Part shown: positions 1 to 26,022 of the stretch, piece after piece | Layout: each line of letters opens with the position of its first letter | Position numbering within the stretch: the first letter of the stretch is position 1 | Origin: an uncultured Alphaproteobacteria bacterium | GTDB lineage: Bacteria; Pseudomonadota; Alphaproteobacteria; Rhodobacterales; Rhodobacteraceae | Reading direction: 5' to 3' | DNA length: 40,619 nt | Assembly: GCA_902584635.1 (NCBI GenBank) | Contig: CACIAQ010000013.1 | Coordinates: forward strand, 1 to 40,619 | Notes under the pieces: generated by a model | Seen by the model: the letters and a program-made list of their open reading frames with translations, nothing else | What the model was told of the DNA's origin: nothing | Databases searched by the model: none | Translations under genes and position numbers: made by a program

Positions 1-264
1 CTTCACAATTGAATGAACATGAGCACCTCTGAACTTCTTTCCACGAACCGATAGGTAACCTTTCTTGTTAAACCATTCTGCGATTTGGTCAAAGGTCTTT
101 CCTTTCTTTCTTTGTTCGTTGATTGTCTCATAGAGAAAGAATTGATACTGTGAATATTGCGGAACAGTAAAAGGTGGACGGCGGTAAGTTATGGAGAAAT
201 GGAAAATCACGTCAGCATTTTTAAATACCCACCCACACCACTCAAACGCCACTGTGGAATAACT
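1..264 (-). CDS. Family A repeat protein copy 1 (recombinase-type helix-turn-helix, cut by window edge)
   Basis: Open minus-strand frame running off the left edge, so the C-terminus is missing. It reads STVAFEW, then FSITYRRPPF, then a module GKTFDQIAEWFNKKGYLS followed by VRGKKF and HSIVK. The pattern G-x-t/s-F-x-x-I-A-x-x-x-N-x-k-G-y-x-s-x-r-G-k-k-f-x-x-x-x-V-x-x-i-v-K is what the 'Recombinase' (PF07508-like) helix-turn-helix of large serine recombinases looks like, but there is no resolvase catalytic domain. No ATG lies in the open part; a GTG is available about 3 codons in. Four longer relatives and several fragments occur further right. Function is unknown; DNA binding is inferred from the motif only. 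Confidence 0.5.
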
Positions 265-368
265 TTAGAAAAATATATGGTAATTACGACCTATTCATTA
301 AGTACAGAGTTGTTATAGAAACCAAGAAATTATCCATCTTTAATCTAGATCCAAAAAGATTAAGTAGA

Positions 369-602
369 TTGAAACTTATAAAGTCCCTAAGTGATCAGGG
401 AAAGTCGTCAGTTGAGATAAGTGATTATCTTAATAGTTATAATTTAAAATCTCCTAGAGGTCATCAGTACACTCCAAAATTGATCTGGGTGACATTAGAC
501 AAGTACAAGAAGAGATTAAAAAGATTTGATAGTTATAAAATTGTCCATAATTCAGAGGAGTTATGTGTAATTTCAAGAAAATTGAAGACTTCAATGAACT
601 GA
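369..602 (+). CDS. Family B repeat protein copy 1, divergent from copy A1
   Basis: The 77 codons from a TTG belong to a frame that is open from about 225, so its 5' part overlaps the start of the divergent A1 frame. Residues 4-45 (IKSLSDQGKSSVEISDYLNS, then a P-R-G-H-Q-Y turn and a V-x-x-x-L-x-K-Y-K-K-R-L helix) match the layout of the better preserved B copies at 3866, 7695 and 14445: a short HTH like the serine-recombinase C-terminal domain. No ribosome-binding site or ATG is visible, so this may be a degenerate copy. The A-left / B-right head-to-head pairing recurs at 7334-7985 and 14165-14850. Confidence 0.4.
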   Translation: MKLIKSLSDQGKSSVEISDYLNSYNLKSPRGHQYTPKLIWVTLDKYKKRLKRFDSYKIVHNSEELCVISRKLKTSMN

Positions 603-715
603 AAATTTAATCCTAAAAATTTCAGGAAAAAATGGTGAGTTTCTTTTGTACTAGAAGAGTGGATTTTTTAGAGAGACAAACAAGATTTGAATAGTTTTGG
701 ACACGTGTGTTTCAA

Positions 716-1192
716 TCATCTCACTTTATAACACAATCCTGGTTTAAAAACCTTAGTTGACTCGGTCTCCCCACTTGTATTTAGTTTGGACTGTCTATCT
801 TGATATGTGAGTTTTGTTTCATTAAAAACAATTGTCCTCACGGAGGATTTTCCATCAAAACCCTTTCGTTTTAAATCAAATAAATAATCATGGTCATTTT
901 TTCTAAAAGTCAAACTCAGTTCACCCCCAGGTTTCTGATGAAGGTCAGATTGAACTGTCTCTTCAAAACTTTTAAATTGGTTTCCATTATTTAAAATAAC
1001 AACGTTTCCAAATTGGTCGAAGTGAATAAAATGGTAATAAATTAACTCAATGTGGGGTATATAAAAAATACTCCATTTTTTCGGACCACATATATATACT
1101 TTTGTATAAACAAAATCTTTTGAGGTCATAGGTTTTGAAAAACATGAAACCGAGACAAAAAATAGAAATATTGTTACAAACAATGTTCTCAT
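716..1192 (-). CDS. Small exported protein of unknown family
   Basis: 158 residues starting with a clear Sec signal: MR, a hydrophobic stretch of about 14 residues, then VSCFSK, with cleavage probably just after the Cys-Phe-Ser. The Cys is not in a strict lipobox. The mature part is mixed beta-like, with a Cys near residue 35 and one near the C-terminus (GLCYKVR) that could pair. I do not recognise a family. It begins 3 bases after the stop of the HNH gene, so it is the third gene of the minus-strand HIT-HNH operon and is probably co-transcribed with it. Confidence 0.6.
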   Translation of the reverse strand: MRTLFVTIFLFFVSVSCFSKPMTSKDFVYTKVYICGPKKWSIFYIPHIELIYYHFIHFDQFGNVVILNNGNQFKSFEETVQSDLHQKPGGELSLTFRKNDHDYLFDLKRKGFDGKSSVRTIVFNETKLTYQDRQSKLNTSGETESTKVFKPGLCYKVR

Positions 1193-1195
1193 ATA

Positions 1196-2128
1196 CTATC
1201 CTTTACAACCGACCCAAAAATACTTGACCCAATCTCTTTCTATAGAAAGTTCAAGATCTTCTGTATTTTTATCTTTAAAGTTCTTTTGATCAATTAATTT
1301 GGATAATTTTTTATTTCGTTCAACTAATTTTTTTATTGTAGACTCACTTGGAATTTTATTCCCCTTAGAGGAATTCTTGTCTTTATCTACATAAACAAGA
1401 TTCCATAAGTTGTCTGAGTAAAGGTAAGACCATGGAATTACATGATCTATTGATAACTTATTTTTCTTTATTGGTTGGTTCGAAATAAAACAGATTTGTT
1501 CTGGATTCTCCAAGTCGAGGTATTTTTGAAACTTTTTCAGATTTCCTCTTTTGACGTCTTCTCTTTCAGTTCCTTTAACCTTTTTTGATATCCGTGGAGA
1601 GTTATTGAATTCCTCAAGTTTCTGTATCCATCTGTAATTTATAATATCGAATAACAAATCCGAATATTCACTTATTAATCTGGAGTTTTTTAAAGTAACT
1701 GTTCTCTTCTCTTTGTCTAACTCATAAAGATCATAACTTTCATTTCCCACTTTTAAGAATCTCCAACAGACATCCTTTGAAAGAATCGTACTTATCTTCT
1801 TTTCTGGAATAGTGATCTTTGACTCTATTTTGGAAAACCATTCAGGTTTGGATCCATGTTGGTTTCTAAACTTATTGATTTCTTCACATACGAGTTGATA
1901 GATACCTGGTCTTTTTTTTGGGTTAGGACTCTGTTCTAAGTCAAAATAAATTGTCTGGTTCCAGTAATATCCAAAAATCTTTTTTGAAAGAGTATCAAAA
2001 TGAATTTCTCTTGTTTTTGGGTCAAGACAACAAGTTTCTACTATCGATCTTATCCAGACCATTTTATAGGTGTTCTCCATATCTCCATTTTGGATGACAT
2101 AGGAAAGATCTTTAATATATTGGTCCAT
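1196..2128 (-). CDS. HNH endonuclease domain protein
   Basis: 310 residues. An HNH fold occupies residues 211-262: ICFISNQPI (one Cys of the usual zinc pair), then IDHVIPWS (catalytic Asp228-His229), WNLV (Asn) and NSSKGNKIPS. Spacing and wording resemble the HNH_4 type found in Cas9 and stand-alone nucleases. Residues 1-200 are a charged helical region that I cannot assign. The ATG overlaps the stop of the upstream HIT gene in a TAATG, implying translational coupling. The most likely role is a DNA-cleaving effector or restriction-like nuclease, but the N-terminal targeting region is unidentified. A phage-defence role is inference from the architecture and operon. Confidence 0.8.
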   Translation of the reverse strand: MDQYIKDLSYVIQNGDMENTYKMVWIRSIVETCCLDPKTREIHFDTLSKKIFGYYWNQTIYFDLEQSPNPKKRPGIYQLVCEEINKFRNQHGSKPEWFSKIESKITIPEKKISTILSKDVCWRFLKVGNESYDLYELDKEKRTVTLKNSRLISEYSDLLFDIINYRWIQKLEEFNNSPRISKKVKGTEREDVKRGNLKKFQKYLDLENPEQICFISNQPIKKNKLSIDHVIPWSYLYSDNLWNLVYVDKDKNSSKGNKIPSESTIKKLVERNKKLSKLIDQKNFKDKNTEDLELSIERDWVKYFWVGCKG

Positions 2129-2514
2129 TAGTACTTCTGTTTAGAGGGTATTACACCTCTTACTCCACCTCGAGGATTTTCCATATCTCCCTTATACCTC
2201 GGTATTAAATGAATATGAACATGAGGAACGGTCTGACCTCCAGTTTCCCCTGAATTTATCCCAACGTTAAATCCGTCAGGTTGAAACTTTTCATCAAGAA
2301 GTTTCTTTGTTTCTAAAACTAATTTTTGAAGACCAAGGACTTCCTCACTAGTTGATTCAAAATAATCGGAATAAACTCTGTGAGGGACGATTAAACAGTG
2401 ACCTTTTGAAACTGGAAATCCATCATAGATAACAAACCCTACTTCATTTTCTAACAGTCTTTCTTTCTTCTCAAGAAATGGACTTTTAAATTCATTTGTC
2501 TCATTCATTTTCAT
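2128..2514 (-). CDS. HIT family nucleotide hydrolase/transferase
   Basis: 128 residues with the histidine-triad signature H-V-H-I-H-L at 98-103, the upstream GINSGETGGQTVPH strand and the family-typical C-terminus G-G-V-R-G-V-I-P. HIT proteins hydrolyse nucleotide phosphoramidates or dinucleoside polyphosphates, with the middle His as nucleophile. Full family length. Start is the first ATG of MKMNE; a second in-frame ATG lies two codons on. It is the first gene of a three-gene minus-strand operon (HIT, HNH, exported protein), coupled to the HNH gene by a one-base stop/start overlap. Confidence 0.9.
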   Translation of the reverse strand: MKMNETNEFKSPFLEKKERLLENEVGFVIYDGFPVSKGHCLIVPHRVYSDYFESTSEEVLGLQKLVLETKKLLDEKFQPDGFNVGINSGETGGQTVPHVHIHLIPRYKGDMENPRGGVRGVIPSKQKY

Positions 2515-2615
2515 TCACCAAGAAGGTCTTCTTTTTTACAACGAATGATTTTAGAGGTTCCTTTCAATTTTAGAATTGTATTTGATTTCAATGATATATT
2601 GGATACTATTTTTTG

Positions 2616-3329
2616 ATGAGAAAAATATTAATTATCACTGTTTTTATATCTCTTCTTTCCTTACCAAGTTGGAGTGAGACGTTTACATTTAATGATTTGG
2701 TTACAAGGAATAATCTCTACTACAAAAAGTTTTCTGATATTCCATTTACTGTTGAGATATCAAGTAAAGAAAGTGGAACGTTTAAAAAGGGGAAGAAAGA
2801 CGGTAAATGGATAATCTACCATAATTTTATTTCAGAAGATGGTAGGAAAAGTTTAAGACAGTTAATAGAAAAAGATAATTTCAAAGACGGAAGACCAGAT
2901 GGGTTTTGGGAATTCATCAACAAAGATAGTTCTCTCACTATAGAGGAAAAGTGGAGAAATGGTCATTTAAGAGAAAGAATTACTTTCAAAGATGGAATAT
3001 TAGATGGTGTTTGGGAAAATTATTCAGATTATGGTCAGTTAGAATCCAAATACAATTACAAAGACGGAGAACGAGATGGTATTGGGGAATGGTATTATAC
3101 AACTGGTAAGTTGTTTTACAAGGTAACTTATAAACGTGGAAAAAAAGATGGACTTATGGAATATTATTCTCCAAATGGTAAGGTGGTTTTTAGGGGAACT
3201 TTTAAACGTGGAAAGGAGAATGGTCTACTTCATTATTATACCCGTGACGGAGTTTTTCAGAAAACGGAAAGTTGGAAAAATGGTATTAAACAATTTGAGT
3301 ATTATACCAATGACGAAATTTTTGAGTAA
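2616..3329 (+). CDS. Exported MORN-like repeat protein (YwqK-type), C-terminus interrupted
   Basis: Signal peptide MRKILIITVFISLLSLPSWS with cleavage after WSE. Then about eight MORN-like units of 20-24 residues with the core F-K-x-G-k-x-D-G-x-W-x-x-Y (for example FKKGKKDGKW, FKDGILDGVW, YKRGKKDGLM). This resembles 'toxin-antitoxin system YwqK family antitoxin' proteins, though that family name does not establish function. Start is the ATG at 2616, preferred over a TTG one codon upstream. A 66-base tandem duplication at the 3' end carries a TAA at 3327 where the first copy reads AAA, removing about 12 residues (TETWKNGIKQE). Confidence 0.7.
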   Translation: MRKILIITVFISLLSLPSWSETFTFNDLVTRNNLYYKKFSDIPFTVEISSKESGTFKKGKKDGKWIIYHNFISEDGRKSLRQLIEKDNFKDGRPDGFWEFINKDSSLTIEEKWRNGHLRERITFKDGILDGVWENYSDYGQLESKYNYKDGERDGIGEWYYTTGKLFYKVTYKRGKKDGLMEYYSPNGKVVFRGTFKRGKENGLLHYYTRDGVFQKTESWKNGIKQFEYYTNDEIFE

Positions 3330-3359
3330 ACGGAAACTTGGAAAAATGGTATTAAACAA
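3235..3359 (+). repeat. Tandem 66-bp duplication at the end of the MORN gene
   Basis: Two units with a 66-base period (3235 and 3301) share most of 59 bases, including an identical core encoding WKNGIKQ. The second unit differs at about seven positions, one of which makes the TAA that ends the MORN frame. It looks like a repeat-unit expansion followed by a nonsense change. Confidence 0.75.
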
Positions 3360-3361
3360 GA

Positions 3362-3834
3362 ATGACCAATTATCTTTTGGATAACTATGATCTCTCCAAA
3401 CTCTTTGATAGTAAAAATAAACCCATAAGTTTCTCAGAAGATCCCACAAATCACATTCCAACCAAAGGTTCCATTATCTACACGATTTGGGACAATGACG
3501 ATAAGATCATCTATGTGGGTATTAGTGGTCTACAATCCTCAAAAGAAAAAGAAATCCAATATCAAGAATGATATCCCACAGATCAGGTAGAAGAAGTGGA
3601 GATCAATTTTGTGTTTATGTTCATGATTATTTTGTAATACCCGAACTTATTAGGGAGGGAACATACAAACCATCCAAAGGGTTTCTAGACGAAAAGACAA
3701 AACACTACATTCAAAAAAATCTTTCCTATAGATTTTGTGACTTTGTCGGTGACAACAGTATAGAGGTAGTGAGAGGTCTAGAAAGTAAGATTAAGAACGG
3801 TGTATTTGGACTCAAACCTCTCCTTTATGGATAA
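3362..3834 (+). pseudogene. GIY-YIG nuclease family gene split by a frameshift
   Basis: The first frame (from 3362) holds the GIY-YIG start: GSIIYTIW, then IIYVGISGL. It runs into a stop at 3571. The rest of the domain continues in the next frame from about 3545: RMISHRSGRRSGDQFCVYVHD, then TKHYIQKNLSYRF and GLKPLLYG, ending at 3834. The two frames join naturally in the A-rich stretch 3541-3558 (caaaagaaaaagaaat), giving one protein of about 155 residues. The ATG at 3568 overlaps the first stop by 4 bases, but starting there would leave the tyrosines of the motif on a separate peptide. Either a slippage-type indel, an assembly error, or a recently broken gene. Confidence 0.75.
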
Positions 3835-3865
3835 GACTTCAAAAGTTTTGAATTAACAGATTTGA

Positions 3866-4252
3866 TATATTATTCTCAAAGTATTCCGTCACGGTAGAGT
3901 AGCTGAGAATTGCTTCTTTTTTGGTGAAGAATACAAACAATATCTTACATTTTCAGTCGAAATAAGCACAAATACACTGCTTTGTAATTACTCTGAGCAT
4001 TTATGGAGTGATGAACAAGAACACACGCATAATCGTATTAAATCACTTCACGATAGTGGAAAAGGCTATAGAACGATTGCTAAGTTATTGAATGCAGAAG
4101 GTTCTCGCACTGCGAAAAATAAAGAATGGAAGAACTCAAATGTTTATGCAGTTCTTAAACGATACGCAGAGAGACAAGCACGACTAGAACGACAGTCTTA
4201 CACTTCAGAAATGAAGTTCAGTAAGATGAAGTTAGAGTGGTTAAAAGATTAG
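3866..4252 (+). pseudogene. Family B repeat protein copy 2
   Basis: The frame is open from 3866 to a TAG at 4250-4252 with no ATG, GTG or TTG in its first 110 codons. It contains VFRHGRVAENCFF, YLTFSVEIS and the HTH module HDSGKGYRTIAKLLNAEG, then NKEWKNSNVYAVLKRYAERQ. This is the best preserved B copy in its C-terminal half; compare 14445 (KDGLGYRRIAKFLNEKG) and 7695 (ETGMSYRRITKHLNDKG). It lies almost wholly inside the inverted-repeat-bounded element 3901-4748, and no A copy is next to it. The missing start suggests a truncated relic. Confidence 0.5.
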
Positions 4253-4748
4253 TTGCAAGTTAAATAATAATTTATCAAAATAATCGTATTTTGAACGACT
4301 ATTCAAAATTAAAAAAAATTAGAGAGATACAAACATGAAAAATTATTTTTTTTTAACGCTAATAATAACTTTGATTATGGCATCAAGTGGATACAGCCAA
4401 AGTAGTAAGAAAGCGACTGCTGAAAGCTTCAAAAAGCAAGTTGTAGGAAAAAAATTCTATGGCAAAAATGGTTTAATCATTAAATTTACTAATGATGGTT
4501 ATTTCTCTGGAGAATTAAAATCTAGTAAAGATGGAACAAAAAGAATTATTAACGGTAGTTGGACATTCAACAAAAAAGAGGGATTTTGCAGAAATCTATT
4601 TTTGACTAATCCAGCTAAAGGTATAACTGCTCCAAGGGGAAGAGAGTGCCAGTCAGTATCTCATAAAGGGAACGGAGTAATTATCGTTGATGGAGCGACT
4701 TGGAAGACTAAAAGATAAGACGTACAACAAAAGAAGCAATTCTCAGCT
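3901..4748. mobile_element. 848-bp element bounded by 20-bp perfect inverted repeats
   Basis: Bases 3901-3920 (agctgagaattgcttctttt) recur as an exact reverse complement at 4729-4748. Outside each end lies an 18-base imperfect direct repeat, 3883-3900 and 4749-4766 (15 of 18 identical), which coincides with the start of the R/A repeat sequence. Inside are a B-family frame and an exported protein, with no transposase. This looks like a non-autonomous element inserted in an R/A junction. A 23-base copy of the right end (as at 4720-4742) recurs exactly at 11831-11853. Confidence 0.55.
4335..4718 (+). CDS. Small exported protein of unknown family, cargo of the inverted-repeat element
   Basis: 127 residues with signal peptide MKNYFFLTLIITLIMASSGYSQ, cleavage near residue 21. 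The mature part has a G-x-x-F-Y-G-x-N-G motif, a central GSWTF strand and two Cys (GFCRN and RECQS) likely to form a disulphide; the C-terminus is DGATWKTK. It looks like a small beta-barrel (lipocalin-like) periplasmic protein, but I cannot name the family. Preceded by agagagat 7 bases before the ATG. It is the only intact gene between the inverted repeats 3901-3920 and 4729-4748. Confidence 0.7.
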   Translation: MKNYFFLTLIITLIMASSGYSQSSKKATAESFKKQVVGKKFYGKNGLIIKFTNDGYFSGELKSSKDGTKRIINGSWTFNKKEGFCRNLFLTNPAKGITAPRGRECQSVSHKGNGVIIVDGATWKTKR

Positions 4749-4750
4749 AT

Positions 4751-4846
4751 TCAGTCACTGTAGAATAAATTATTAATTTTATTGGGTTTCTTTGACCCTA
4801 CAGAGTGATAGAGTAAGTGTTTCTGTAGGTATGTGTTTCTGATATA
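4751..4846. repeat. R repeat copy 1 (solo 5' end of family A with conserved hairpin)
   Basis: About 95 bases shared with 9105-9196 and 14053-14149, and partly with 22000-22041 and 23715-23770. Read on the minus strand the left part encodes I-I-Y-S-T-V-T-E, equal to the start of the A frames (other copies have ATG: M-I-Y-S-T-V-T). The right part holds an 8-bp perfect stem, CCTACAGA at 4797-4804 with TCTGTAGG at 4822-4829, and a 17-base loop. It may be the A-gene promoter or operator, or a recombination site. Confidence 0.65.
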
Positions 4847-4909
4847 GTTGGAGTATGACTATTTTCAGCAAGTAAGATAAAAAAATCGATACAATGGGGG
4901 AGAAATCAA

Positions 4910-5212
4910 ATGGGTATCTTCAGAAATTTTGTAATTAATTTTAAGTCAAAGGACGATTGTGAAAACTATTTAATTCGTTCAAAAGATTTTTATCCCTCTC
5001 TAAAAGGAATGGGTATGCAAAATATGACTGTATGTCGATTAACTGAAGATTCTCTTCTTATGTTTGCAGTATTCAATACAGATAAAGACGCACTCGCAGT
5101 TATTGAAAAAACAAGCGAGTGGAGGAAAATAAATCGGTTCGAGTTTCTTGACATAATTGTCTTGGATGGGAAAATTGAAACTCACTATGATTTCACAGAG
5201 TTGGAAAAATAA
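4910..5212 (+). CDS. ABM-like small protein, paralogue 1
   Basis: 100 residues, MGIFRNFVINFKSKDDCENY to DIIVLDGKIETHYDF. Clear paralogue of 6648-6962 (MSIFRNVVLNLKTEQECD to DILVLDGQIEWHKNF), with remnants at 19456. The beta-alpha-beta-beta-alpha-beta pattern and size fit an antibiotic-biosynthesis-monooxygenase or dimeric alpha-beta barrel fold; that is structural inference, with no catalytic residues to name. Good ribosome site (gggggagaaatcaaATG). It stands alone just after R repeat copy 1 and convergent with the GST gene, 4 bases from its end. Confidence 0.7.
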   Translation: MGIFRNFVINFKSKDDCENYLIRSKDFYPSLKGMGMQNMTVCRLTEDSLLMFAVFNTDKDALAVIEKTSEWRKINRFEFLDIIVLDGKIETHYDFTELEK

Positions 5213-5216
5213 ATAA

Positions 5217-5840
5217 CTACTCGGGAGGTAAAGGTGCGGAAAATACTTCCGTTTTAAAAGTGCGCCTCTCTTTCAAATTAATATACAACTTTTCTAACGA
5301 TTTAAACTCTGCAATCTCTAAACCCAAAACCACACATCTATGTATCCAGCAACCAATGGGGATGTCTGCTAAACTAAGTTGATTTTCAAGAAGATAATTA
5401 GTTTTTTCTAACTGCTTATTTAATAATTCGAAGCATGAATAGATCTTCTTTTTTGCTTCAGATGCTAAAGCAGTGTTTCTTTGTTCAATGGGAAGCAACA
5501 TATTATGCACTGTATAAGTTGAACAGTTTAATCCAAAAACTGAACTCGACCAATCAATCCACTGATTATTTAATGCTATCTTTTCTTGAGTGTCAGACTT
5601 GAGAATATCAAACTTATCAGATATGTATTTTATAATTGAATTGGATTCATAAAGTATAAAGTCACCATCTTTCAAAACTGGAATAGTGCTATTTGGGTTC
5701 AACCTTATAAATGCTGGAGAGGTCAGTCCACCATACTTCCCTCCAACTATTTCTGTTTTGAATTCCAAGTTACCTTCACTACAAATCCAACGAACCTTTT
5801 GAACATTTGCGGAAGATTTTCTTCCATATACAGTTAACAT
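5217..5840 (-). CDS. Glutathione S-transferase family protein
   Basis: 207 residues. N-terminal thioredoxin-like domain (1-80) with MLTVYGRKSSANVQKVRW, the cis-Pro motif NSTIPVLKDGD and the glutathione-binding LYESNSIIKYI. C-terminal helical domain (90-205) with LLENQLSLADIPIG, the GST-C N-cap motif containing the conserved Asp. The Ser at position 9-10 is the probable catalytic residue. Length and domain order are normal. It is a single-gene unit, convergent with the ABM-like gene and followed upstream by a family A 3' fragment. Substrate unknown; a detoxification or dehalogenation-type conjugation role is the family expectation. Confidence 0.9.
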   Translation of the reverse strand: MLTVYGRKSSANVQKVRWICSEGNLEFKTEIVGGKYGGLTSPAFIRLNPNSTIPVLKDGDFILYESNSIIKYISDKFDILKSDTQEKIALNNQWIDWSSSVFGLNCSTYTVHNMLLPIEQRNTALASEAKKKIYSCFELLNKQLEKTNYLLENQLSLADIPIGCWIHRCVVLGLEIAEFKSLEKLYINLKERRTFKTEVFSAPLPPE

Positions 5841-5884
5841 AACAATCCTAGAATATTTTTATAAGAATTGAATGTAATTATTTA

Positions 5885-6095
5885 CTACAGGTTGGTCAAA
5901 TTTAAAAAATCTTCAGTCATATTGACTAAAGTCTTATCAACCACTTCTAAACTAAAATCAGACTACACCTCTGGATACTCTCTTTCTAACTTTTCATCTT
6001 TCAATCTTTTCTTCTTCACGATTGAATAAACTGATTACCTTTGAACTTCTTTCAACGTACGGAGAGGTATCCTTTGTTGTTCGTTGATTAAGTTC
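5885..6095 (-). repeat. Family A copy 2, 3' fragment
   Basis: Sequence matching the C-terminal half of the A frames in the same orientation: the ACCAAAGTCTTATC-like end, the SDFSLE region (ctaaaatcagac), KKKRLKDEKLE and the first part of the HTH. It breaks off near 6095 with short deletions (compare 7334-7560). No open frame survives. It lies between the GST gene and the DUF1330 gene. Confidence 0.65.
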
Positions 6096-6150
6096 AAAAA
6101 TAAAACTAAAATTTACGTGCAATTATATTCACTAAAAGGAGACGAGATAT

Positions 6151-6441
6151 ATGAAAAAGGGATATATAATAGGGCAAATAACCATTACAAATGCTGATAA
6201 TTATAAGGCATATGCTTCTAATACTGAACAAATTATAAAGAAGTTTGGAGGAAAATATTTGGTTAGGGGAGGAGAACAAGACGTAAAAGAGGGCAATCCA
6301 AGCGGTAATCGTAATGTGGTCGTTGAGTTTGAAAGTACCGAAAGAGCAAATGCTTTTTATAATTCGGAGGAATACGCAAAAATTATAGATATCCGCAAGG
6401 ATAATTCTGAAGGATATTTTGTTATAATCGAAGGTTATTAA
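6151..6441 (+). CDS. DUF1330 family protein
   Basis: 96 residues, full length for DUF1330 (PF07045). It shows KGYIIGQITITNADNYKAYA, then GGKYLVRGG, VVVEFESTERANAFYNSEEY and GYFVIIEGY, the order of conserved blocks seen in the family. It is a dimeric ferredoxin-like alpha-beta fold of uncertain biochemistry. Strong ribosome site aaaggagacgag before the ATG. Single gene between family A copy 2 and a gene fragment of the 91-residue membrane protein. Confidence 0.9.
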   Translation: MKKGYIIGQITITNADNYKAYASNTEQIIKKFGGKYLVRGGEQDVKEGNPSGNRNVVVEFESTERANAFYNSEEYAKIIDIRKDNSEGYFVIIEGY

Positions 6442-6532
6442 ACCCTTTCAAACTTGAATCAAACTACTTCAATGGGTCATCTCTCTCTAAATTCTCATGT
6501 GACTTTTAACTGTTTTGAGCACATATTTTTAA

Positions 6533-6604
6533 CTAGAAGTTTTTTGAAATATATCGAATTACTAAGAACACAATTAAAGGGATTAGATTAACATAGACGA
6601 ATAT
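6533..6604 (-). pseudogene. C-terminal fragment of a membrane protein like that at 11315-11590
   Basis: Minus-strand translation IFVYVNLIPLIVFLVIRY-ISKNF-stop is nearly identical to the C-terminus of the 91-residue membrane protein (GIFVYVNLIPLIVFLVIRY-TLKNF-stop). At the DNA level 6536-6604 matches 11318-11390 closely. The first two thirds of the gene are missing. It shows that a block containing this gene was duplicated and cut. Confidence 0.75.
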
Positions 6605-6647
6605 ACAAAAATCAAAATACGGAATTGAAAATTATAGAGGATCATGA

Positions 6648-6962
6648 ATGAGTATTTTTAGAAACGTTGTACTGAATCTTAAAACTGAGCAGGAATGCGA
6701 TAGAGTTATTGGTCTTTACAAAGAACAGTTATCATCACTAGAGAATGAGGGATTAGAAGATGTTTACATTTGTAGATTATCAAAGGATTCAGTTCTGTTC
6801 TTTTTAACTATAAATAACGATAAAAATGCAGAAAGGATTTTTGACACGATGCGAGCATTTAGAGAACAGAAAAATCTAGATTTAATAGACATACTAGTGT
6901 TAGACGGTCAGATTGAGTGGCATAAAAATTTTTCGATCTCGAAATTTGGTTTCAATGACTAA
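6648..6962 (+). CDS. ABM-like small protein, paralogue 2
   Basis: 104 residues, paralogue of 4910-5212: MSIFRNVVLNLKTEQECDRV, then VYICRLSKDSVLFF, FDTMRAFR and ILVLDGQIEWHKNFS. Dimeric alpha-beta-barrel size and pattern; function unknown. Ribosome site gaggatcatgaATG is weak. Its stop overlaps the start of the 39-residue membrane protein (ATGACTAA), so the two are translationally coupled, which suggests a shared role. Confidence 0.7.
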   Translation: MSIFRNVVLNLKTEQECDRVIGLYKEQLSSLENEGLEDVYICRLSKDSVLFFLTINNDKNAERIFDTMRAFREQKNLDLIDILVLDGQIEWHKNFSISKFGFND

Positions 6963-7074
6963 AACCTTCACTCTTCTCTTTTTATTTGCATGGGCATCAA
7001 TGATTGTTGGATACCTTTTAGGTATGTTGGAAATACCACCAACTATGTATCTCATTAATTTACTATTTGGATAA
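6955..7074 (+). CDS. 39-residue single-span membrane protein, copy 1
   Basis: Translation begins MTKTFTLLFLFAWASMIVGY and ends LINLLFG. One transmembrane span (residues 6-22), then a short E-x-P-P-T-M turn and a second hydrophobic tail. A 42-residue relative at 19897-20025 shares most residues (MTKTFT-FLFLFAWALMIVGYLMG and LEVPPTM-LLINL), mostly with synonymous or conservative differences. That is good evidence of coding selection for such a short frame. It overlaps the upstream ABM-like gene by 8 bases and is followed by two hairpins (7081-7113 and 7215-7289). Confidence 0.7.
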   Translation: MTKTFTLLFLFAWASMIVGYLLGMLEIPPTMYLINLLFG

Positions 7075-7080
7075 AAAAAG

Positions 7081-7113
7081 GGAGAACCCAATATATTTTA
7101 ATCTGGGTTCTCC
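7081..7113 (+). terminator. Perfect 10-bp hairpin after the small membrane protein gene
   Basis: GGAGAACCCA (7081-7090) pairs exactly with TGGGTTCTCC (7104-7113) across a 13-base AT loop, 7 bases after the TAA. No T-tract follows, so it may be a poor intrinsic terminator or an mRNA 3'-end stabiliser. Confidence 0.55.
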
Positions 7114-7214
7114 ATTCATGAGGAAAATATGAAAAAAAGATAGGAGCAATATCTGTTCCAAAAGTTTTTTTGACACCTAAAAAATTTGGTTCTGAATTAT
7201 CATTCTTGTGATTT

Positions 7215-7289
7215 AGGTCGTAAGTAGTATATGATAGGGAGGGGACTTATAAGGAACGAGATCAAATCATTTCCTTATTTGTCCGACCT
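7215..7289 (+). ncRNA. Candidate hairpin RNA H1 with conserved loop
   Basis: Stem GGACTTATAAGGAA (7243-7256) pairs with TTCCTTATTTGTCC (7271-7284), 12 of 14, around the loop CGAGATCAAATCAT. AGGTC and GACCT at 7215 and 7285 can close an outer stem. The paralogous hairpin at 20228-20264 has a different stem sequence but nearly the same loop (CGAGATCAAGTCATT), so structure and loop are conserved while stem bases change. A TTGTGA / TATGAT pair lies just upstream (18-base spacing). Strand inferred from that promoter and from the paralogue. Confidence 0.5.
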
Positions 7290-7333
7290 TAAAACACTCA
7301 CTCCTCAAAATTCTAGATATACTTTCTAATCTA

Positions 7334-7702
7334 TCAATCCTCAAACATATTAACCAAAGTCTTATCCACCACCTCCAAACTAAAATCAGACCACACTCTG
7401 GATACTGTCTTTCTAACTTCTCATCTTTCAGTCTTTTCTTCTTCACAATTGAATGAATGTGATTGCCTTTGAACTTCTTCCCACGAACAGATAGGTATCC
7501 TTTTTTATTTAACCACTCTGCAATTTAGTCAAAAGTCTTTCCTTTCTCTCTATGAGCGGTGATTGTTTCATAGAGAAAGAATTGATATTGTGAATACTGT
7601 GGAACACTAAAAGGTGGACGGCGGTAAGTTATAGAGAAATTGAAAGTCACATCTGCAGAGAACAACCCACCATTACACCGCACAAACGATACTGTTGAAT
7701 AA
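7334..7702 (-). pseudogene. Family A repeat protein copy 3 (full-length, broken)
   Basis: Longest A copy. Minus-strand reading: I-Y-S-T-V-S-F-V-R-C-N-G-G, ADVTFNFSITYRRPPFSVPQ, YSQYQFFLYE, then the HTH KTFD-stop-IAEWLNKKGYLS, KKKRLKDEKLE and, after a one-base slip, LVNMFED-stop. A TAA replaces the conserved Gln codon (CAA) in the HTH, and a base is lost in the YPEVWSDF block. It starts head-to-head with the B copy at 7695, overlapping its 5' end. No ATG at the start position (TGG instead). Confidence 0.6.
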
Positions 7703-7985
7703 ATCCAAATACGGATTTAGCGAAACAAAGTACTACCATTATTTATGTTTTAAAGTTTCAAACCGAACAAATAGATTCACTGCTCGTAATAGTAATAGAT
7801 ATTCTGAAAGACAAAAAGAACTGCATAACTACATTAAGAACTTGTACGAAACTGGCATGTCATATCGTAGAATTACAAAACATCTAAATGATAAGGGTAT
7901 CAAGACACACACTGGAAAAGAGTGGGGTGAAACTGGAAACTCTGTTTACTCAGTACTCAAGAAGTATCGTCTAAGAGAAGAGTGA
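7695..7985 (+). CDS. Family B repeat protein copy 3
   Basis: 96 codons from a TTG. N-terminal YYHYLCFKVSN corresponds to the YLTFSVEIS block of copy 2. The HTH is NLYETGMSYRRITKHLNDKG, then KTHTGKEW and NSVYSVLKKYRLREE. Shorter at the C-terminus than copy 2. The HTH matches the second half of a serine-recombinase 'Recombinase' domain; there is no catalytic Ser domain. Divergent from, and overlapping the start of, A copy 3. Sound frame but no clear ribosome site, so expression is uncertain. Confidence 0.45.
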   Translation: MNKSKYGFSETKYYHYLCFKVSNRTNRFTARNSNRYSERQKELHNYIKNLYETGMSYRRITKHLNDKGIKTHTGKEWGETGNSVYSVLKKYRLREE

Positions 7986-8144
7986 TTAGAACCTCTGAAT
8001 AGAGAGTACGAACTTGAGTGGGGAACTATGGAAGTTCGGTGGGAAAAGAACTAAAAGATGTTTTTTGAAGTATGGAATGAGCAACCATTATGAAACCATT
8101 AAATAGTTTTTTGCTTTTCAAAGTTTTTCAAATAAAGTGTGACG

Positions 8145-9068
8145 ATGAAAACTATAACCATGATTCAAGTTTTACTCTTCTCTCTTTTATTGGGAGCACC
8201 TTCTTATTCTGCTGACTTTGATAAAGGATTGACTGCTTTTCAAAATGGAGACTATGCGACCGCATTGAAAGAATGGAAACCTCTTGCTGAAGAAGGAAAT
8301 GCAAGTGCACAGACTAATTTAGGATTGATGTACGAAAAAGGATTAGGAGTTCCCCAAGATTATAAAGAAGCAGTTCGATGGTACAAACTTGCTGCTTTAA
8401 AAGGAATAGCAAGGGCACAGACTTTGCTAGGAGTGATGTACGAAGAAGGAAACGGAGTTCCCCAAGACTATAAAAAAGCAGCACGATTATACATACTTGC
8501 TGCTGAACAGGGAAATGCAATGGGACAGTATTATCTCGGAGCGATGTACACTTCTGGAGATGGTGTTTCCCAAGATCAAAAAGAAGCAATTCGATTATAC
8601 ATACTTGCTGCTGAACAGGGATATGCAAGTGCACAGACTATTCTAGGAGTGATATACCAGATTGGAAGCGTAGGCGTAGTTCCCCAAAATTATAAAGAAG
8701 CAGTTCGATGGTACAAACTTGCTGCTTTACAAGGAAATTCACTTGCACAGACTAATCTAGGAGTGATGTACGAAGAAGGATTAGGAGTTCCCCAAGATTA
8801 TAAAGAAGCAGCACGATTATATACACTTGCTGCTGAACAGGGAAATGCAAATGGACAGAACAATTTAGCAAATCGTTACTATAATGGGGAGGGTGTCATT
8901 GAAGATATGGTTTATGCACATATGTGGAAGAATATTGCTTCTTCGAACGGAGACCAAAAAGCAAAAGAGGATTTAAAGGTATTTGAAAAGAAAATGACCT
9001 CATCCCAGATAGAAGAAGCACAAAGACTTGCTAGAGAGTGTGTAAAAAAGAACTACAAGGGATGTTGA
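8145..9068 (+). CDS. Exported Sel1-like repeat (SLR/TPR) protein
   Basis: 307 residues from the ATG at 8145 (a GTG two codons upstream is less likely). Signal peptide MKTITMIQVLLFSLLLGAPS-YSA, then one TPR-like opener (DFDKGLTAFQNGDYATALKEW) and six Sel1 repeats of 36-38 residues with the core A-Q-x-x-L-G-v-M-Y-E-x-G-x-G-V-P-Q-D-Y-K-E-A, followed by a terminal helix pair (YAHMWKNIAS) and a Cys pair near the end (RECVKKNYKGC). Periplasmic protein-protein interaction scaffold. The DNA of successive repeats is very similar, so unit number may vary. R repeat copy 2 starts 37 bases after the stop. Confidence 0.9.
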   Translation: MKTITMIQVLLFSLLLGAPSYSADFDKGLTAFQNGDYATALKEWKPLAEEGNASAQTNLGLMYEKGLGVPQDYKEAVRWYKLAALKGIARAQTLLGVMYEEGNGVPQDYKKAARLYILAAEQGNAMGQYYLGAMYTSGDGVSQDQKEAIRLYILAAEQGYASAQTILGVIYQIGSVGVVPQNYKEAVRWYKLAALQGNSLAQTNLGVMYEEGLGVPQDYKEAARLYTLAAEQGNANGQNNLANRYYNGEGVIEDMVYAHMWKNIASSNGDQKAKEDLKVFEKKMTSSQIEEAQRLARECVKKNYKGC

Positions 9069-9104
9069 TAAATGAGTTCAACTTATTTCATCAGTCAAAC
9101 TCAC

Positions 9105-9196
9105 TCCGTCACTGTCGAATAAATCATTGATTTTATTGGTTTTTTTACACGACAGAGTAACAGGGTAAGTGTTTCTGTAGGGGGTGCGTTTCTGAT
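9105..9196. repeat. R repeat copy 2
   Basis: Matches 4751-4846 and 14053-14149. On the minus strand it reads ATG-ATT-TAT-TCG-ACA-GTG-ACG-GAG-stop (M-I-Y-S-T-V-T-E), showing the probable start codon of the A family with its body missing. The hairpin is weaker here (ACAGA/TCTGT). It sits between the Sel1 gene and the DsrE gene. Confidence 0.65.
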
Positions 9197-9286
9197 TTTA
9201 GCAAATAAATTTTCTTAAAGACACGCTTGGTTGAAACAGTTCAAAAAAAAACTATAAATTACATAAATAAATTTTTAGGAGAAAAA

Positions 9287-20403: not shown

Positions 20404-20823
20404 ATGTACATTGAATTTGCATTGTTGCTGAACGCATTTCTGCTGGGAGTAATGACTTCTTTCATGATAGTTACATCGCCCACGGTGTTCAAAACGCTTG
20501 ACGAAGAAAATTCTAAAAAATTTCTGAGATGTATATTTCCTCGATTATTTAACTTTTGCTTTCTCATTTCAGCATTTGTATTTCTGTTTTTCGCGTTGGG
20601 AGATTTTTTTTACGGGACCGTGGTTGCTATTGGTGTATCAATAAGTTTTTTAGTAAATACTAATCTTTTAACGCCCCGAATAAATATGATGAGGGATTTA
20701 TCACTCGCAGGCGACAAAACGTCAGCAAGGTCATTTAAGTACCTACACCTGGCATCAGTTCTTTTATATCTTCTCAATATGTTATTTGTGGTTTCGGTAT
20801 TTATTCTTTATTACATTAAATGA
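20404..20823 (+). CDS. DUF4149 family membrane protein
   Basis: 139 residues, four spans (about 5-25, 48-68, 70-90, 113-135). LLNAFLLGVMTSFMIVTSPT, then LDEENSKKFLRCIFPRLF and the loop LLTPRINMMRDLS fit the DUF4149/TMEM205-like fold, where P-x-x-F-x-x-L and the F-P-x-x-F motifs are typical. Inner membrane; function unknown. ATG follows taagg. Stands alone next to an A fragment. Confidence 0.8.
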   Translation: MYIEFALLLNAFLLGVMTSFMIVTSPTVFKTLDEENSKKFLRCIFPRLFNFCFLISAFVFLFFALGDFFYGTVVAIGVSISFLVNTNLLTPRINMMRDLSLAGDKTSARSFKYLHLASVLLYLLNMLFVVSVFILYYIK

Positions 20824-20883
20824 CACTAATTTATATCATATAAAAGGTATATTAGTTGCCCGTTCAATAGATGGTATCGAAAC

Positions 20884-21306
20884 ATGCGCCCCATAATTTT
20901 TGTATTTTCTTTTATTTTCATGTGTTCAAAATTTGCTGTTGCAGAAACTATTCAAATTGATTTTACTGCAGATGACTCATACAGCATTGAAGTTGCCAAA
21001 ATAGATGTTGGGGACACTATAGAGTGGTTACCTAAAAATGAAGGGCTTAACGTTGAGTTTCTCGGAGGTCCAGATTTTAATTTCTTGCCAGAAAAGTCAG
21101 ATTTAAATGCTTTTTATTCGGTCACTTTTAATTTTCCTGGAGTATATTTATATCATTGTACACCACACGGTAATATGGGAATGCTAGGTCTAGTTATAGT
21201 GGGAAATGATTTTCACAATTTACAGGATATTGAAGGGATAGAACTTTCCCGTATAGCGAAATCAGTCTTGCAAAGATTGATTAGAATTGCCCAATCAAAT
21301 TCGTAA
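20884..21306 (+). CDS. Pseudoazurin-like cupredoxin lacking one copper His
   Basis: 140 residues; signal peptide MRPIIFVFSFIFMCSKFAVA, so periplasmic. Cupredoxin fold: VGDTIEWLPKNEG, then the C-terminal copper loop YHCTPHGNMGM with Cys92, His95 and Met100 in the pseudoazurin spacing. The first ligand, normally the His of G-H-N-V-E, is Leu55 here (EGLNVEF, codon ctt), so a type 1 site would lack one ligand. Pseudoazurins carry electrons to nitrite or nitrous oxide reductases; this one may be impaired or altered. C-terminal helix SRIAKSVLQRLIRIAQ is normal. Single gene followed by an A fragment. Confidence 0.85.
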   Translation: MRPIIFVFSFIFMCSKFAVAETIQIDFTADDSYSIEVAKIDVGDTIEWLPKNEGLNVEFLGGPDFNFLPEKSDLNAFYSVTFNFPGVYLYHCTPHGNMGMLGLVIVGNDFHNLQDIEGIELSRIAKSVLQRLIRIAQSNS

Positions 21307-21312
21307 TTACTC

Positions 21313-21345
21313 AAAAACATCCTACAACATACTTACCAAAGTTAT
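21313..21345 (-). repeat. Family A 3' end fragment
   Basis: catcctacaacatacttacc and aaagttatat match the A 3' terminus (compare 10058-10093: gtctgcaaacatattaacca then aagtcttatc). Directly after the cupredoxin stop. Confidence 0.45.
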
Positions 21346-21411
21346 ATAAAAAAAAATGACTAACTTAGATCATCCTATCTTTATGTAGTTTTTGTTGATT
21401 TAGTTTTATAA

Positions 21412-21879
21412 ATGAACTATTCCGCTAGGGTAATAATATTTAACTTTTTTGGGGATTTAGATCTGAGCAGAAAATTAAACAAGGTTAAAGCAAAATTAAC
21501 TGCTGATCATGTTGACAGAAATGGACATGTTTCGGAAGTAGGTTATCTTAAAGTGGCAAATTGGGCATATTGGGAAATATGTGACCGAGTGGGTTTATTA
21601 GAATTATATAATCTGTATAAGGTCAGTGGAATTGTGTTTAATACTAATATGGAGTTCAAAAAAGAGGTTTTTGAAGGGGAACAGGTCACGATTCATTTAA
21701 GATTTTCTATTTCAAAAGATAATAGGAAAATTTTAAGACAATTAGATATTTATAATGATAAAAATGAATTAGTAGTCAAGATTATTTCGAAGGGTGGTTT
21801 TTTGGATCTAAACAAAAGAAAAATTATTGAACCCCCAAGACAAATAACAGATATATGTATTAAACATTTAAAAGAATAA
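21412..21879 (+). CDS. Hotdog-fold acyl-CoA thioesterase
   Basis: 155 residues. LTADHVDRNGHVSEVGYLKV is the 4HBT-type signature (H-V-D-x-x-G-H-x-x-x-x-x-Y), with the catalytic Asp in the D-R-N-G-H turn; GIVFNTNMEFKKEVFEGEQV and LDIYNDKNELVVK complete the fold. Typical length. The first 20 residues before KLNKVKAKL are hydrophobic and could be upstream extension; a later start is possible. Substrate unknown. Followed after 4 bases by another A fragment. Confidence 0.8.
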   Translation: MNYSARVIIFNFFGDLDLSRKLNKVKAKLTADHVDRNGHVSEVGYLKVANWAYWEICDRVGLLELYNLYKVSGIVFNTNMEFKKEVFEGEQVTIHLRFSISKDNRKILRQLDIYNDKNELVVKIISKGGFLDLNKRKIIEPPRQITDICIKHLKE

Positions 21880-21883
21880 TCTT

Positions 21884-21935
21884 ATCAATAACTTCCAAAC
21901 TAAAATCAGGCCAAACCTATGGAACCTCTTCCAAC
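21884..21935 (-). repeat. Family A 3' fragment
   Basis: cttatcaataacttccaaac and taaaatcaggccaaacctat match the A 3' region (10089-10130), with the following bases degenerate. Confidence 0.5.
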
Positions 21936-21999
21936 TTTGATTTCAATGTCGCGCCTTTTTGAGAAAGTTCAAGAAAAAATCACAAATTACATAATCAAA

Positions 22000-22041
22000 G
22001 TGATGGCAGTAAATGCTTCTGTAGGTGTATGTTTTTGATAC
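22000..22041. repeat. R repeat copy 4 (partial)
   Basis: gtgatggcagtaaatgcttc and tgtaggtgtatgtttttgata match the right half of R (compare 4806-4846). The A start part is missing. It ends 8 bases before the alpha/beta hydrolase ATG, so it supplies that gene's upstream DNA. Confidence 0.55.
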
Positions 22042-22049
22042 AATAAAGA

Positions 22050-23689: not shown

Positions 23690-23690
23690 A

Positions 23691-24189
23691 TCATAGGACG
23701 GTCGTTGCAACAGGATCCGTTACTGTAAAATAAATTATTGATTTTATGATGTTTTTTATCCAACAGAGTATTTCGCTGGAGTCAACATATTCGATAGTTA
23801 TTGGGTTCTTTTTGCTCAGTACCTTCTTCAATTCATCCACACTCACCCAACCAATATCAATGGCAGTACGATGTCCCATCAGAAATTTAGATGTATATAA
23901 AACCTTCATGCTTATCTCGCCATCCATAAATTTGCTGGTTACCAAATTACCCTCTAGTTTTTTAAATTCAGGATGATCTATATACGTGTAAACGAACGTA
24001 AGGAGATTACCTTTTTCGCGATGCCCGTTGATCAAGAAAACATGAAGTCCATTTACCATGTGTGACATGCCAATTAACTGTCGCATGAACTGAATTTTCA
24101 GTTATTATGTTTACTACCCATTCGTCATCAATACTTTCTTCTGCGATCAACTCTCCGAATGCGGTTAATGACCAAATGACCCAGAGCAA
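23691..24189 (-). pseudogene. Exported protein gene with frameshift, fused to R repeat
   Basis: First frame: LLWVIWSLTAFGELIAEESI, EWVVNIITENSV (signal peptide then start of the mature part). It then continues in the next frame: SHMVNGLHVFLINGHREKGN, FVYTYIDHPEFKKLEGN, GHRTAIDIGWVSVDELKKVL and EYVDSSE. The shift is near 24075. After SSE the frame runs into R repeat copy 5 (IIYFTVTDPVAT), so the true C-terminus is replaced. No ATG at the start. Family not recognised; a small periplasmic protein in its intact form. Confidence 0.6.
23715..23770. repeat. R repeat copy 5 (partial)
   Basis: atccgttactgtaaaataaa and ttattgattttat then caacagagta match R (14053-14108). Minus-strand reading I-I-Y-F-T-V-T-D-P. 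It cuts into the C-terminus of the exported-protein pseudogene. Confidence 0.6.
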
Positions 24190-24232
24190 TGAGATAATTA
24201 AAAAATTTCGCGCTAACGGCTAGGATTTATAA

Positions 24233-25363
24233 TCAGACACGTTTTTTGTTTTGAATAGGCAATTTAGAATTTTTAAAAATACTAGTGCAAAGTGATGACT
24301 TCAAATTCTTTATAAAGCTTTGGTTGTCAGCTGCATAATGTCTTTGAGCAATCAGGTGATGAATATGCGGTTGAAAAATGCTTTTATCTGATGACATTAT
24401 TTTCCAATTTTTATCAAATGGATAGCGATCAAATCTATTTGAAAATTTACCAACTTGCTTAATGTACCTATTGAAGCAAACAAAGATACCATGTTCTTTG
24501 AGTGTAGAATGAATGGTATTAAAATAAAATTTCAATGTAGTGGCATTCATTTCCATCATGGATCTGATATTTATGAAGACGTCGACCTCTTGTTCTTTAA
24601 ATAACTCTCTAATCGTCCAAGTTGGTAATATCAAAAATTTAAACTTTTCCTTGAGAATTTTTCTCCCCAGTCTTTTAAAATCTTGAAAACCCAAAATTTT
24701 ATCCTTTGGAAAAACCTTAGATAAATAATAAGTTTGAATGGCGTTCACCTCTGGCAAATCAATAATAACAAATCTCGCATTCGGAATATTATTACGAATT
24801 TTGGTTTGTAGACCTCCATAACCCGCACCAATTTCGCAAAAAAGAGGCTTTTCAGGTAAGGAAACGCTCTCCAAAGATTTTAAAACTTGCCAGCAATGTC
24901 GTATATCATCCATATCATGCAGATTACAAAGAATTTCTTTTATCCCGAATTTACCGTTTGTTTTAAATTTTGCTGCTACGGGTGAACCGACATTAGATAA
25001 GGTATTCTGCATTACGAACTTTACGTCTGTAAAAGCAATAGTGGCCAATAAATTTTTTTCGTGAAATTTAATCGATTTTGTGTCTTCATCTTTTATATCA
25101 AAAATCAGGTCATCATATTCACCACTTTTCAGTCTTGCCCAAAGATTGTCATCAGCCTTAAAAAATCTTTCGTTACTGATTTTCGTGAGATTATCGTTTA
25201 ATCCAAGAGTCAGCGCGTTACGAAGCATTCGTTCCCAAATTCTTTTCCTTGTGATTACCTTATCAAAATTCGTATTAAAAACATCCCAATGCTCACTTAC
25301 AAATTCTCTTTTTTCAAGAGACTTTGAGAGACGGTAATTTTCTGCAATGGCATTAAAACACAT
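24233..25363 (-). CDS. Putative sugar O-methyltransferase
   Basis: 376 residues. SAM-binding motif I FCEIGAGYGGLQTKI in the middle (about 170-185), then FVIIDLPEVNAIQTYYLSKV (motif II with Asp) and a helix-rich tail with RSMMEMNATTLKFYF. This pattern (GxGxGG, DLPE-NxxxQxYYL, S-x-x-E-M) is that of the 'putative sugar O-methyltransferase' family that decorates surface polysaccharide. N-terminal 150 residues are helical. Complete. Single gene, but with the TPR-methyltransferase and YfhO-like genes it suggests surface-glycan modification in the region. Confidence 0.8.
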   Translation of the reverse strand: MCFNAIAENYRLSKSLEKREFVSEHWDVFNTNFDKVITRKRIWERMLRNALTLGLNDNLTKISNERFFKADDNLWARLKSGEYDDLIFDIKDEDTKSIKFHEKNLLATIAFTDVKFVMQNTLSNVGSPVAAKFKTNGKFGIKEILCNLHDMDDIRHCWQVLKSLESVSLPEKPLFCEIGAGYGGLQTKIRNNIPNARFVIIDLPEVNAIQTYYLSKVFPKDKILGFQDFKRLGRKILKEKFKFLILPTWTIRELFKEQEVDVFINIRSMMEMNATTLKFYFNTIHSTLKEHGIFVCFNRYIKQVGKFSNRFDRYPFDKNWKIMSSDKSIFQPHIHHLIAQRHYAADNQSFIKNLKSSLCTSIFKNSKLPIQNKKRV

Positions 25364-25659
25364 ATTTTCAAACCGAAATTATTTTAATTTAAAATATATC
25401 CGCTTTTTTGTTTTCATGTAAAAAAAACTGTTTGGAGCCTCAATAAAATGCATAAATTTCAAAGTTTCTTTCATCAACCCAAAGTAAAATTCAGAAAAAC
25501 CTCTGACTTATCTCGACTTGGGGAGCTTTTTGTGAAATATTTTCCCTTTAGAAACAACTAGAAGATTAAATTGAGTGTGAGTTGATTTATCACTAATTCT
25601 TTTTATCCTATTAAGTAGCGTAGTGACTAGAAATTATATTTACTTACTCAATCGTTGTA
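25364..25659. other. Spacer with possible weak A fragment
   Basis: No frame of note. tcatcaacccaaagtaaaat and tcagaaaaacctctg at 25469-25503 have a faint likeness to the A 3' end, too degenerate to call. Nothing else seen. Confidence 0.35.
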
Positions 25660-26022
25660 ATGCCTGGGTTTTCAAAACTAAATAATAAAGAATTTTTAAA
25701 AGCATTTCAGGTCACTGATATGATAACTCAAAATAACCAACCGCTATTCATGATAACTTGGATAGGTTCAATTATTGCAATGTTATGGATGATTATTATT
25801 TCAATTATGACTTATGGATTATTAGATTCATGGTTAATCATTGCTACTGGCACTACTTATCTGTTGAATGTCCAGGTTACAATTATCGCATTTCACCTTC
25901 CTTTAAATAATAAGATCGAGAAAATTGAAATTAACAAAATATCCTCCTCATTGTTGACAGAAGAAAGATCAAAACTTGAAACGAAATGCGATTACCACAA
26001 CAATATCTGCACAAGCATATAA
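25660..26022 (+). CDS. DUF1772 (anthrone oxygenase-like) membrane protein
   Basis: 120 residues with spans at about 33-53, 55-73 and 75-88; LNNKEFLKAFQVTDMITQNN, then TGTTYLLNVQVTIIAFHLPL and N-N-K-I. The FHLPLNN motif is typical of DUF1772. The usual second half of the last helix has conserved Trp residues (W-x-x-W-N-N-I-R-T); here it reads KLETKCDYHNNICTSI, with Cys and His where Trp is expected, and the N-terminal span is missing. The gene may be shortened or decaying. Start ATG gtaatgcctggg, no clear ribosome site. Confidence 0.7.
   Translation: MPGFSKLNNKEFLKAFQVTDMITQNNQPLFMITWIGSIIAMLWMIIISIMTYGLLDSWLIIATGTTYLLNVQVTIIAFHLPLNNKIEKIEINKISSSLLTEERSKLETKCDYHNNICTSI

Follow-up and report, generated by a model that had tools for sequence, protein, structure and literature searches.

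The first 15 kb or so of contig CACIAQ010000013.1 (assembly GCA_902584635.1, an uncultured Alphaproteobacteria bacterium of the Rhodobacteraceae), which was analysed over its whole length of 40,619 nucleotides and is referred to here as the window, probably carries part of a tandem array of small mobile cassettes that is anchored behind the 3' end of glmS and moved site-specifically, with the assistance of helix-turn-helix (HTH) proteins and by an enzyme supplied in trans. A previous, sequence-only reading had described a cassette array in which accessory genes are separated by one repeat family (A/B/R). The array idea is upheld, and its punctuation is reassigned to a short core, common to A, B and R, in which the final glmS codons (S-V-T-V-E-stop) are mimicked. 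The window is the complete contig C13 of genome G000 (2.0 Mb, 78% complete), and the same-genus comparison set comprised 22 genomes (58–91% complete). The core motif, N[ACT]AC.GT.GARTRR, was derived from the glmS codons and is found five times on the forward strand of the window and not at all on the reverse strand, against a mean of 0.31 and a maximum of 2 in 100 dinucleotide shuffles. Over 30 stretches (528,731 bases) there are 60 cores, compared with 6.2 (sd 1.9) in ten shuffles, so some six of the 60 may be chance occurrences.

In G021:C14 (L041), the repeat R is seen to consist of the glmS terminus (...NLAKSVTVE-stop) and roughly 85 further bases. Part or all of glmS was found in 12 of the 22 same-genus genomes, and in 11 the available sequence runs through the 3' end of the gene and beyond it; all 11 have an intact coding end, and the sequence that follows varies. 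Directly behind the gene are R (G021, G017 and G003), an R-like variant (G016), a B-type frame (G011 and G014), a different B-type frame (G000:C62), an F064-type HTH gene (G005 and G006) or unrelated sequence (G018 and G019). Different strains thus have different cassettes behind one anchor, in support of the earlier idea of a cassette array. The glmS gene of the window genome lies on a 6.5-kb contig, C62, with cassettes behind it, and C62 and C13 may plausibly belong to a single array; in G019:C6, G016:C2 and G011:C2, glmS, the array and the right flank are present on a single contig. Blind searching recovered the HTH family described below from 12 further genomes of the class, and in 10 of these it starts at the glmS stop codon. 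A search of the phylum found it in five of 397 other genomes, with only G623 having it at glmS, the stretches from the other four containing no glmS end.

A set of 132 junctions was compiled from the 30 stretches and 32 other loci, and their left and right ends were clustered separately. The ends combine freely: the glmS-type left end (n = 30) is joined to 20 types of right end, the A end (n = 24) to 21, and R (n = 23) stands after seven multi-member left types and seven single ones. While bases fixed by the motif carry no information on the point of exchange, core base 5 agrees in 64% of the pairs that share only the right end (281 pairs), compared with 33% of those sharing only the left end (382 pairs, glmS aside) and 32% of unrelated pairs (7540). 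At base -4, agreement is 92% when the left end is shared, 33% when the right end is shared (without R), and 48% for unrelated junctions. The opposite behaviour of the two positions points to an exchange between core bases 2 and 5. The exactness of the junctions had been posed as a test of the cassette idea, and the switch in identity is indeed confined to these few bases. As for the suggestion that A/B/R act by recombination or homology, homology-driven shuffling alone does not account for so short an exchange. The AC of the core was also considered as a special dinucleotide and rejected: with its positions left free it recurs in 105 of 114 cases, similar to the 105 of 109 for GT when that is left free.

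Many array members also have symmetric ends specific to the cassette. For each of 92 inter-core stretches (40–5500 bases, relaxed motif), the left end was scored against the reverse-complemented right end, giving a mean match of 9.29 for own pairs and 5.87 (sd 1.60) for crossed pairs, and the own-pair mean was not reached in 10,000 permutations. Thirty of the 92 exceed the 99th percentile of crossed pairs (0.92 expected), and an earlier pass over 40 same-genus stretches gave 11 with matching ends; about two thirds of the 92, R...A units included, fail the strict test. Matching inverted ends mean that an excised circle would carry one large palindrome. At the predicted circle junction, 28 of the 92 stretches match at 19 or more of 30 positions, and the palindrome of every one of these has its centre between the core's A and C (49 centres tried), as it does in 14 of the remaining 64. 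The centre of symmetry and the point of exchange, derived independently, thus coincide at AC. Behind glmS itself, a partner for the left end was clear in one of eight stretches (G162), just above the null in another (G156), and not seen in six.

Evidence of movement comes from nine pairs of similar stretches in different genomes (79–100% over at least 70%). The downstream sequence differs in all nine, and upstream one pair shares a neighbour, one shares 21 bases and seven share nothing. A gene-free cassette of 46 bp (46/46 identical) directly adjoins the glmS end in L180 and lies 4 kb downstream of the gene in L190, and a 412-bp cassette (388/412) has different neighbours in L179 and L188. In G795, which belongs to the genus of G162 and is without a cassette, similarity between the two stops at the glmS stop codon and resumes 162 bases further on in G795 and 6.0 kb further on in G162; 5.0 kb of the insert is a cassette with matching ends, which leaves 0.95 kb outside it. 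The reach of the system is wide: a G019 cassette is 90% identical to one in a SAR116 record, while the GlmS proteins of nine SAR116 records share only 43–45% identity with G021 GlmS. Among named records, under the records' own taxon labels, the A protein has its relatives mostly in uncultured marine Alphaproteobacteria sequenced as single cells (AG- isolates), with others from SAR116 and OCS116 cluster records, one Hydrogenophilales, one Rhodospirillaceae and two weak ones in Bacillales. No relatives were found in viral contigs queried with A and B, and there was no match in phages searched with A or in plasmids searched with B-type sequence.

The A and B repeats are genes of one family of HTH proteins (100–130 aa) that resemble part of the Recombinase domain PF07508. 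Six of seven tested members pass the curated cut-off, matching the first half of the profile only, and no catalytic domain was seen in proteins of the family. The genes are under purifying selection (nine valid pairs). PF00239, the serine recombinase catalytic domain, was matched in 13 of the 22 same-genus genomes, never in a frame longer than 215 aa, so that no large serine recombinase, sought as a PF00239 open frame above 215 aa, was detected in these 22. PF00239 went unmatched in 15 of 26 additional genomes that carry the HTH family, including seven that are 89–100% complete (completeness figures cover 11 of the 26). PF00589, used for the integrase search in which IntI was not modelled by itself, has matches in all 22 same-genus genomes; in the window genome, 78% complete as noted, these are on C2, C24, C26, C54 and C63, with none on C13 or C62. 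The absence of an integrase at the array, remarked on in the sequence-only reading, agrees with this, as the PF00239 and PF00589 matches of the window genome are all on other contigs.

Several recombinase genes may be mentioned here. A small serine resolvase, F043 (PF00239 and HTH_7), lies within some arrays of the genus (L053, 9713–10249; L091, 10250–10786; L046, 10088–10624; L054, 12505–13041) and is a possible catalytic partner. It is present, at 82% identity or more, in eight genomes (G003, G006, G009, G011, G012, G015, G017 in part, and G019), and was not found in the fetched arrays of other lineages. A full serine integrase is encoded 4.3 kb behind glmS in G355. Adjacent pairs comprising a long tyrosine recombinase (607–677 aa) and a small serine resolvase occur in islands elsewhere, in L147 (G000:C24), L148 (G000:C54) and L152 (G007:C20), and those in G000:C24 and C54 have no A, B or R match nearby.

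Each cassette lies between two core copies that mimic S-V-T-V-E-stop. Under the proposed mechanism, the inverted repeats of about 17–24 bp that many cassettes have at their ends would form a large palindrome centred on the core AC when the cassette is excised as a circle. Integration would then swap DNA at or next to AC, leaving glmS intact and stacking the cassettes in one orientation. The HTH protein, whether of A or B type, may bind the end repeats of its own cassette and so confer specificity, with the cutting enzyme working in trans; a serine-type mechanism is our first guess. More tentatively, this could represent a distinct and widespread form of cassette recombination. Cassettes would bring their own end repeats and a stand-alone recombinase-domain protein, attach at codons belonging to an essential gene, and depend for catalysis on a partner that is shared or borrowed, or that comes from an unrecognised family. 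The stand-alone protein may in that case act as a subunit that provides specificity, or as one half of a serine recombinase that has been split.

Other explanations deserve consideration. The agent that moves the same array could be a tyrosine recombinase, either XerC/XerD of the host or the integrase of an island acting in trans, with the HTH protein as an excisionase-like helper, although we regard this as unlikely. The overlap used by tyrosine recombinases is usually 6–8 bp, and the exchange interval found here, core bases 2 to 5 with base 5 going along with the right-hand element, is narrower than this and so counts against them; the core also bears, as we take it, no likeness to dif. It is nonetheless the case that PF00589 is found in every one of the 22 genomes, against 13 for PF00239, and that the known SE elements, in the part of their description available, have 19-bp inverted end motifs together with tyrosine recombinases (PMC9345347). 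A transposon with terminal inverted repeats and target-site duplication, casposon-like or Tn7-like and aimed at the end of glmS, would account for the inverted repeats at the ends and for a core that recurs and resembles a target site, and glmS is the target of Tn7 as well. Such a transposon is nevertheless improbable, as the right part of the core moves with the right element, unlike a plain target duplication, and Cas1 was matched in none of the 22 genomes (control, 9 of 14). A search of the same 22 for TniQ/TnsD gave no match, and as its control gave none either, it carries no weight.

Homing, in which cassette nucleases would cut the glmS end and host repair would copy the cassette in, draws on the frequent nuclease cargo (LAGLIDADG_3 beside the glmS of the window genome, GIY-YIG, NucS_C and HNH_4). 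It sits poorly with gene-free 46-bp cassettes that are common to genomes at different places and with a few-base exchange that requires no long homology, and seems slightly less probable still than a transposon. That the repeats are ordinary paralogous genes compounded by single-cell assembly artefacts is very improbable: array contigs do often stop inside the array, many A copies are decayed, and a glmS remnant in G005:C6 has array genes on both sides, but the same arrangement recurs in near-complete genomes of other families, and the statistics for end repeats, palindrome centre and exchange point contradict it.

A site-specific cassette array at glmS resembles integrons in its small, tandem, co-oriented cassettes, site-specific joints, fixed chromosomal anchor and a folded or palindromic site on the cassette. 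It differs in having the end of a housekeeping gene as anchor and no integrase gene in the window, and in end repeats that span both ends of one cassette, with cassettes often carrying their own HTH gene. The staphylococcal cassette chromosome (SCC) also forms tandem elements with inverted end repeats at the 3' end of a conserved gene, and is moved by large serine recombinases (ccr); such chemistry would fit here, although no PF00239 match in the 22 same-genus genomes falls in an open frame above 215 aa. Tn7-like elements (attTn7) share glmS as landing site, but Tn7 inserts slightly downstream of the gene, whereas here the stop codon itself marks the point of insertion and the core is repeated, and transposition genes were not seen. 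Additive flexible genomic islands are marked by recurring copies of a gene 3' end, in their case 20 bp of tRNA genes, and the available part of that account mentions no cassette-specific end repeats or HTH proteins (PMC10872708). GInts, which include a small helix-loop-helix protein (PMC5385486), and SE elements (PMC9345347) are likewise site-specific islands, but both, according to the sections available, encode their own tyrosine recombinases, unlike the present case. A literature search, with most subscription papers outside its scope, returned nothing similar at glmS among the matches listed.

If the proposed system is real, it would be an integron-like means of gene exchange for streamlined ocean bacteria and a concrete vehicle for such exchange in the open ocean, seen as it is in single-cell genomes of several marine lineages. 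The core could serve as a marker for reading cassettes out of metagenomes, and a recombinase that is possibly split might be usable as a tool. The cassettes carry restriction, nuclease and small metabolic genes. Their 134 open reading frames (ORFs) matched 100 families, and the 25 of these listed include MORN (9), DsrE (5), Adhesin_E (3) and GST (3), several nucleases and methylases, and Resolvase in one ORF; PADLOC models, 25 of 61 listed, include restriction enzymes and methyltransferases. The cassette adjoining the glmS of the window genome (L060 3004–4365, on G000:C62) specifies a protein of 454 aa, in which a LAGLIDADG_3 domain was recognised along with several HTH matches. In G294, the last codons of a cytosine methylase gene (L250 5203–6540) themselves mimic the GlmS tail and overlap the core.

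Arrays are also present at a second site, away from glmS, in G011:C3 (L055), G009:C2 (L056), G019:C15 (L053) and G015:C52 (L099), adjoining families F052/F053, one a SIS-domain protein and the other the gene next to it. In G011, G009 and G019, the array begins near a degenerate sequence of about 40 bp that is like the end of glmS. In G005, glmS survives as a remnant interrupted by stops, and the array genes that flank it on both sides in G005:C6 (L098, L049) may reflect either an inversion or a single-cell assembly chimera.

Within the window there are 16 A/B/R places, all in the same orientation, in line with the previous estimate of at least 12, mostly co-oriented. They comprise seven A copies or pieces (1–262, 5905–6081, 7336–7705, 10058–10320, 11229–11272, 14160–14456 and 21859–21929), four B-type frames (about 261–602, 3889–4252, 7689–7985 and 14516–14873), three R (4751–4846, 9105–9196 and 14052–14149) and two R pieces (21999–22046 and 23715–23757, the latter within an ORF at 23691–24086). 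The view of A/B/R as one punctuation element is not retained: R combines the terminus of glmS with a left cassette end, the protein genes A and B stand at right or left cassette ends, and the true punctuation is the short core that they share. A census of 84 A matches (at least 72% identity, none at a contig edge) found 47 that keep only the end towards the upstream cargo, 5 that keep only the core side, 11 full copies and 21 internal pieces. Such a bias is expected if deletions fused adjacent cassettes, although the count of 47 may be inflated by divergence close to the core, and the abrupt A ends within cassettes look like deletion scars. An Rfam scan of the window gave no matches, and promoter- and terminator-like sites around one R (3850–5300) were not above shuffle level.

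The two well-preserved cassettes of the window lie near its left end. An A-type HTH gene on the reverse strand (1–252, family F000, identified by translation) forms the right end of a cassette truncated where the contig begins, and is followed by core 1, the glmS-codon mimic found by motif at 249–262 on the forward strand, as are the cores and cassettes that follow. The first complete cassette (263–3888) carries an F064-type HTH gene (369–602), an ORF (716–1192) and genes for HNH_4 (1196–2128), HIT-like (2128–2514) and MORN-like (2613–3329) proteins and F046 pieces (3362–3834), between end repeats at 257–278 and 3865–3886 (inverted repeat score 12.5). Core 2 (3889–3902, by motif) leads into the best preserved cassette (3903–4754), which encodes a B-type HTH protein (3908–4252) and a 127-aa ORF (4335–4718); its 24-bp end repeats (3897–3920 and 4729–4752) have a score of 21.5, rank 1 of 92. 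Core 3 (4755–4768), at the start of R, opens an R...A unit (4769–7688), probably of fused cassettes, with no end-repeat match. It contains ORFs at 4910–5212, 6151–6441 and 6648–6962, a GST-like gene on the reverse strand (5217–5840), the A piece at 5905 and, on the reverse strand, the A copy at 7336. Between core 4 (7689–7702, by motif) and core 5 (9109–9122, again at the start of R) is a hybrid cassette (7703–9108) with differing end types, a B-type HTH gene (7695–7985) and a Sel1-like gene (8139–9068).

The remainder of the array, 9123–14873, is a fused and decayed run. Its first part (9123–14057, forward) holds a DsrE-family ORF (9287–9649), A pieces, a DUF2938 gene (PF11158, 10323–10808), an ORF (10920–11216) and a TPR protein gene on the reverse strand (12188–13690). 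DUF2938 was said to begin exactly where A breaks off, and it does so, two bases past the A end at 10320, but the fusion looks inherited: the junction is also present in G003:C3, G011:C3 and G021:C8 at the same place in A (query position 266–267), and an identical break in four genomes suggests a single event. The neighbours of the fusion differ among the four (window, 10058–10808; G003:C3, 9609–10359; G011:C3, 26165–26901; G021:C8, 12501–13040), making it a marker of cassette movement. Beyond this are a mutated core 6 (14058–14071, relaxed motif) at the start of R, an A remnant with stop codons (14160–14456), a degenerate core with AA in place of AC (14516–14529) and the last B-type HTH gene (14541–14873), all on the forward strand.

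The conserved right flank starts with F010 on the reverse strand (14885–15346). Between F010 and the rearranged flank genes is a gene (15988–18624) for an 878-aa membrane-like protein, which has no Pfam match and no family mate in the compared contigs. The DUF4149, cupredoxin and thioesterase genes on the forward strand (20404–21879; flank families F006, F004 and F007), with the A piece at 21859 and R piece at 21999, and the genes from 22050, belong to families kept as a block in 9 to 12 compared contigs, with the order rearranged in the window. Because the genes at 20–25 kb belong to this block, the array proper ends near 14.9 kb, so that its proposed extent of 1–25660 holds to about that point, the 20–25 kb genes being mostly chromosomal flank. 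The rest of the right flank (26095–40507), also outside the array, consists mostly of families that are co-ordered with those of related contigs.

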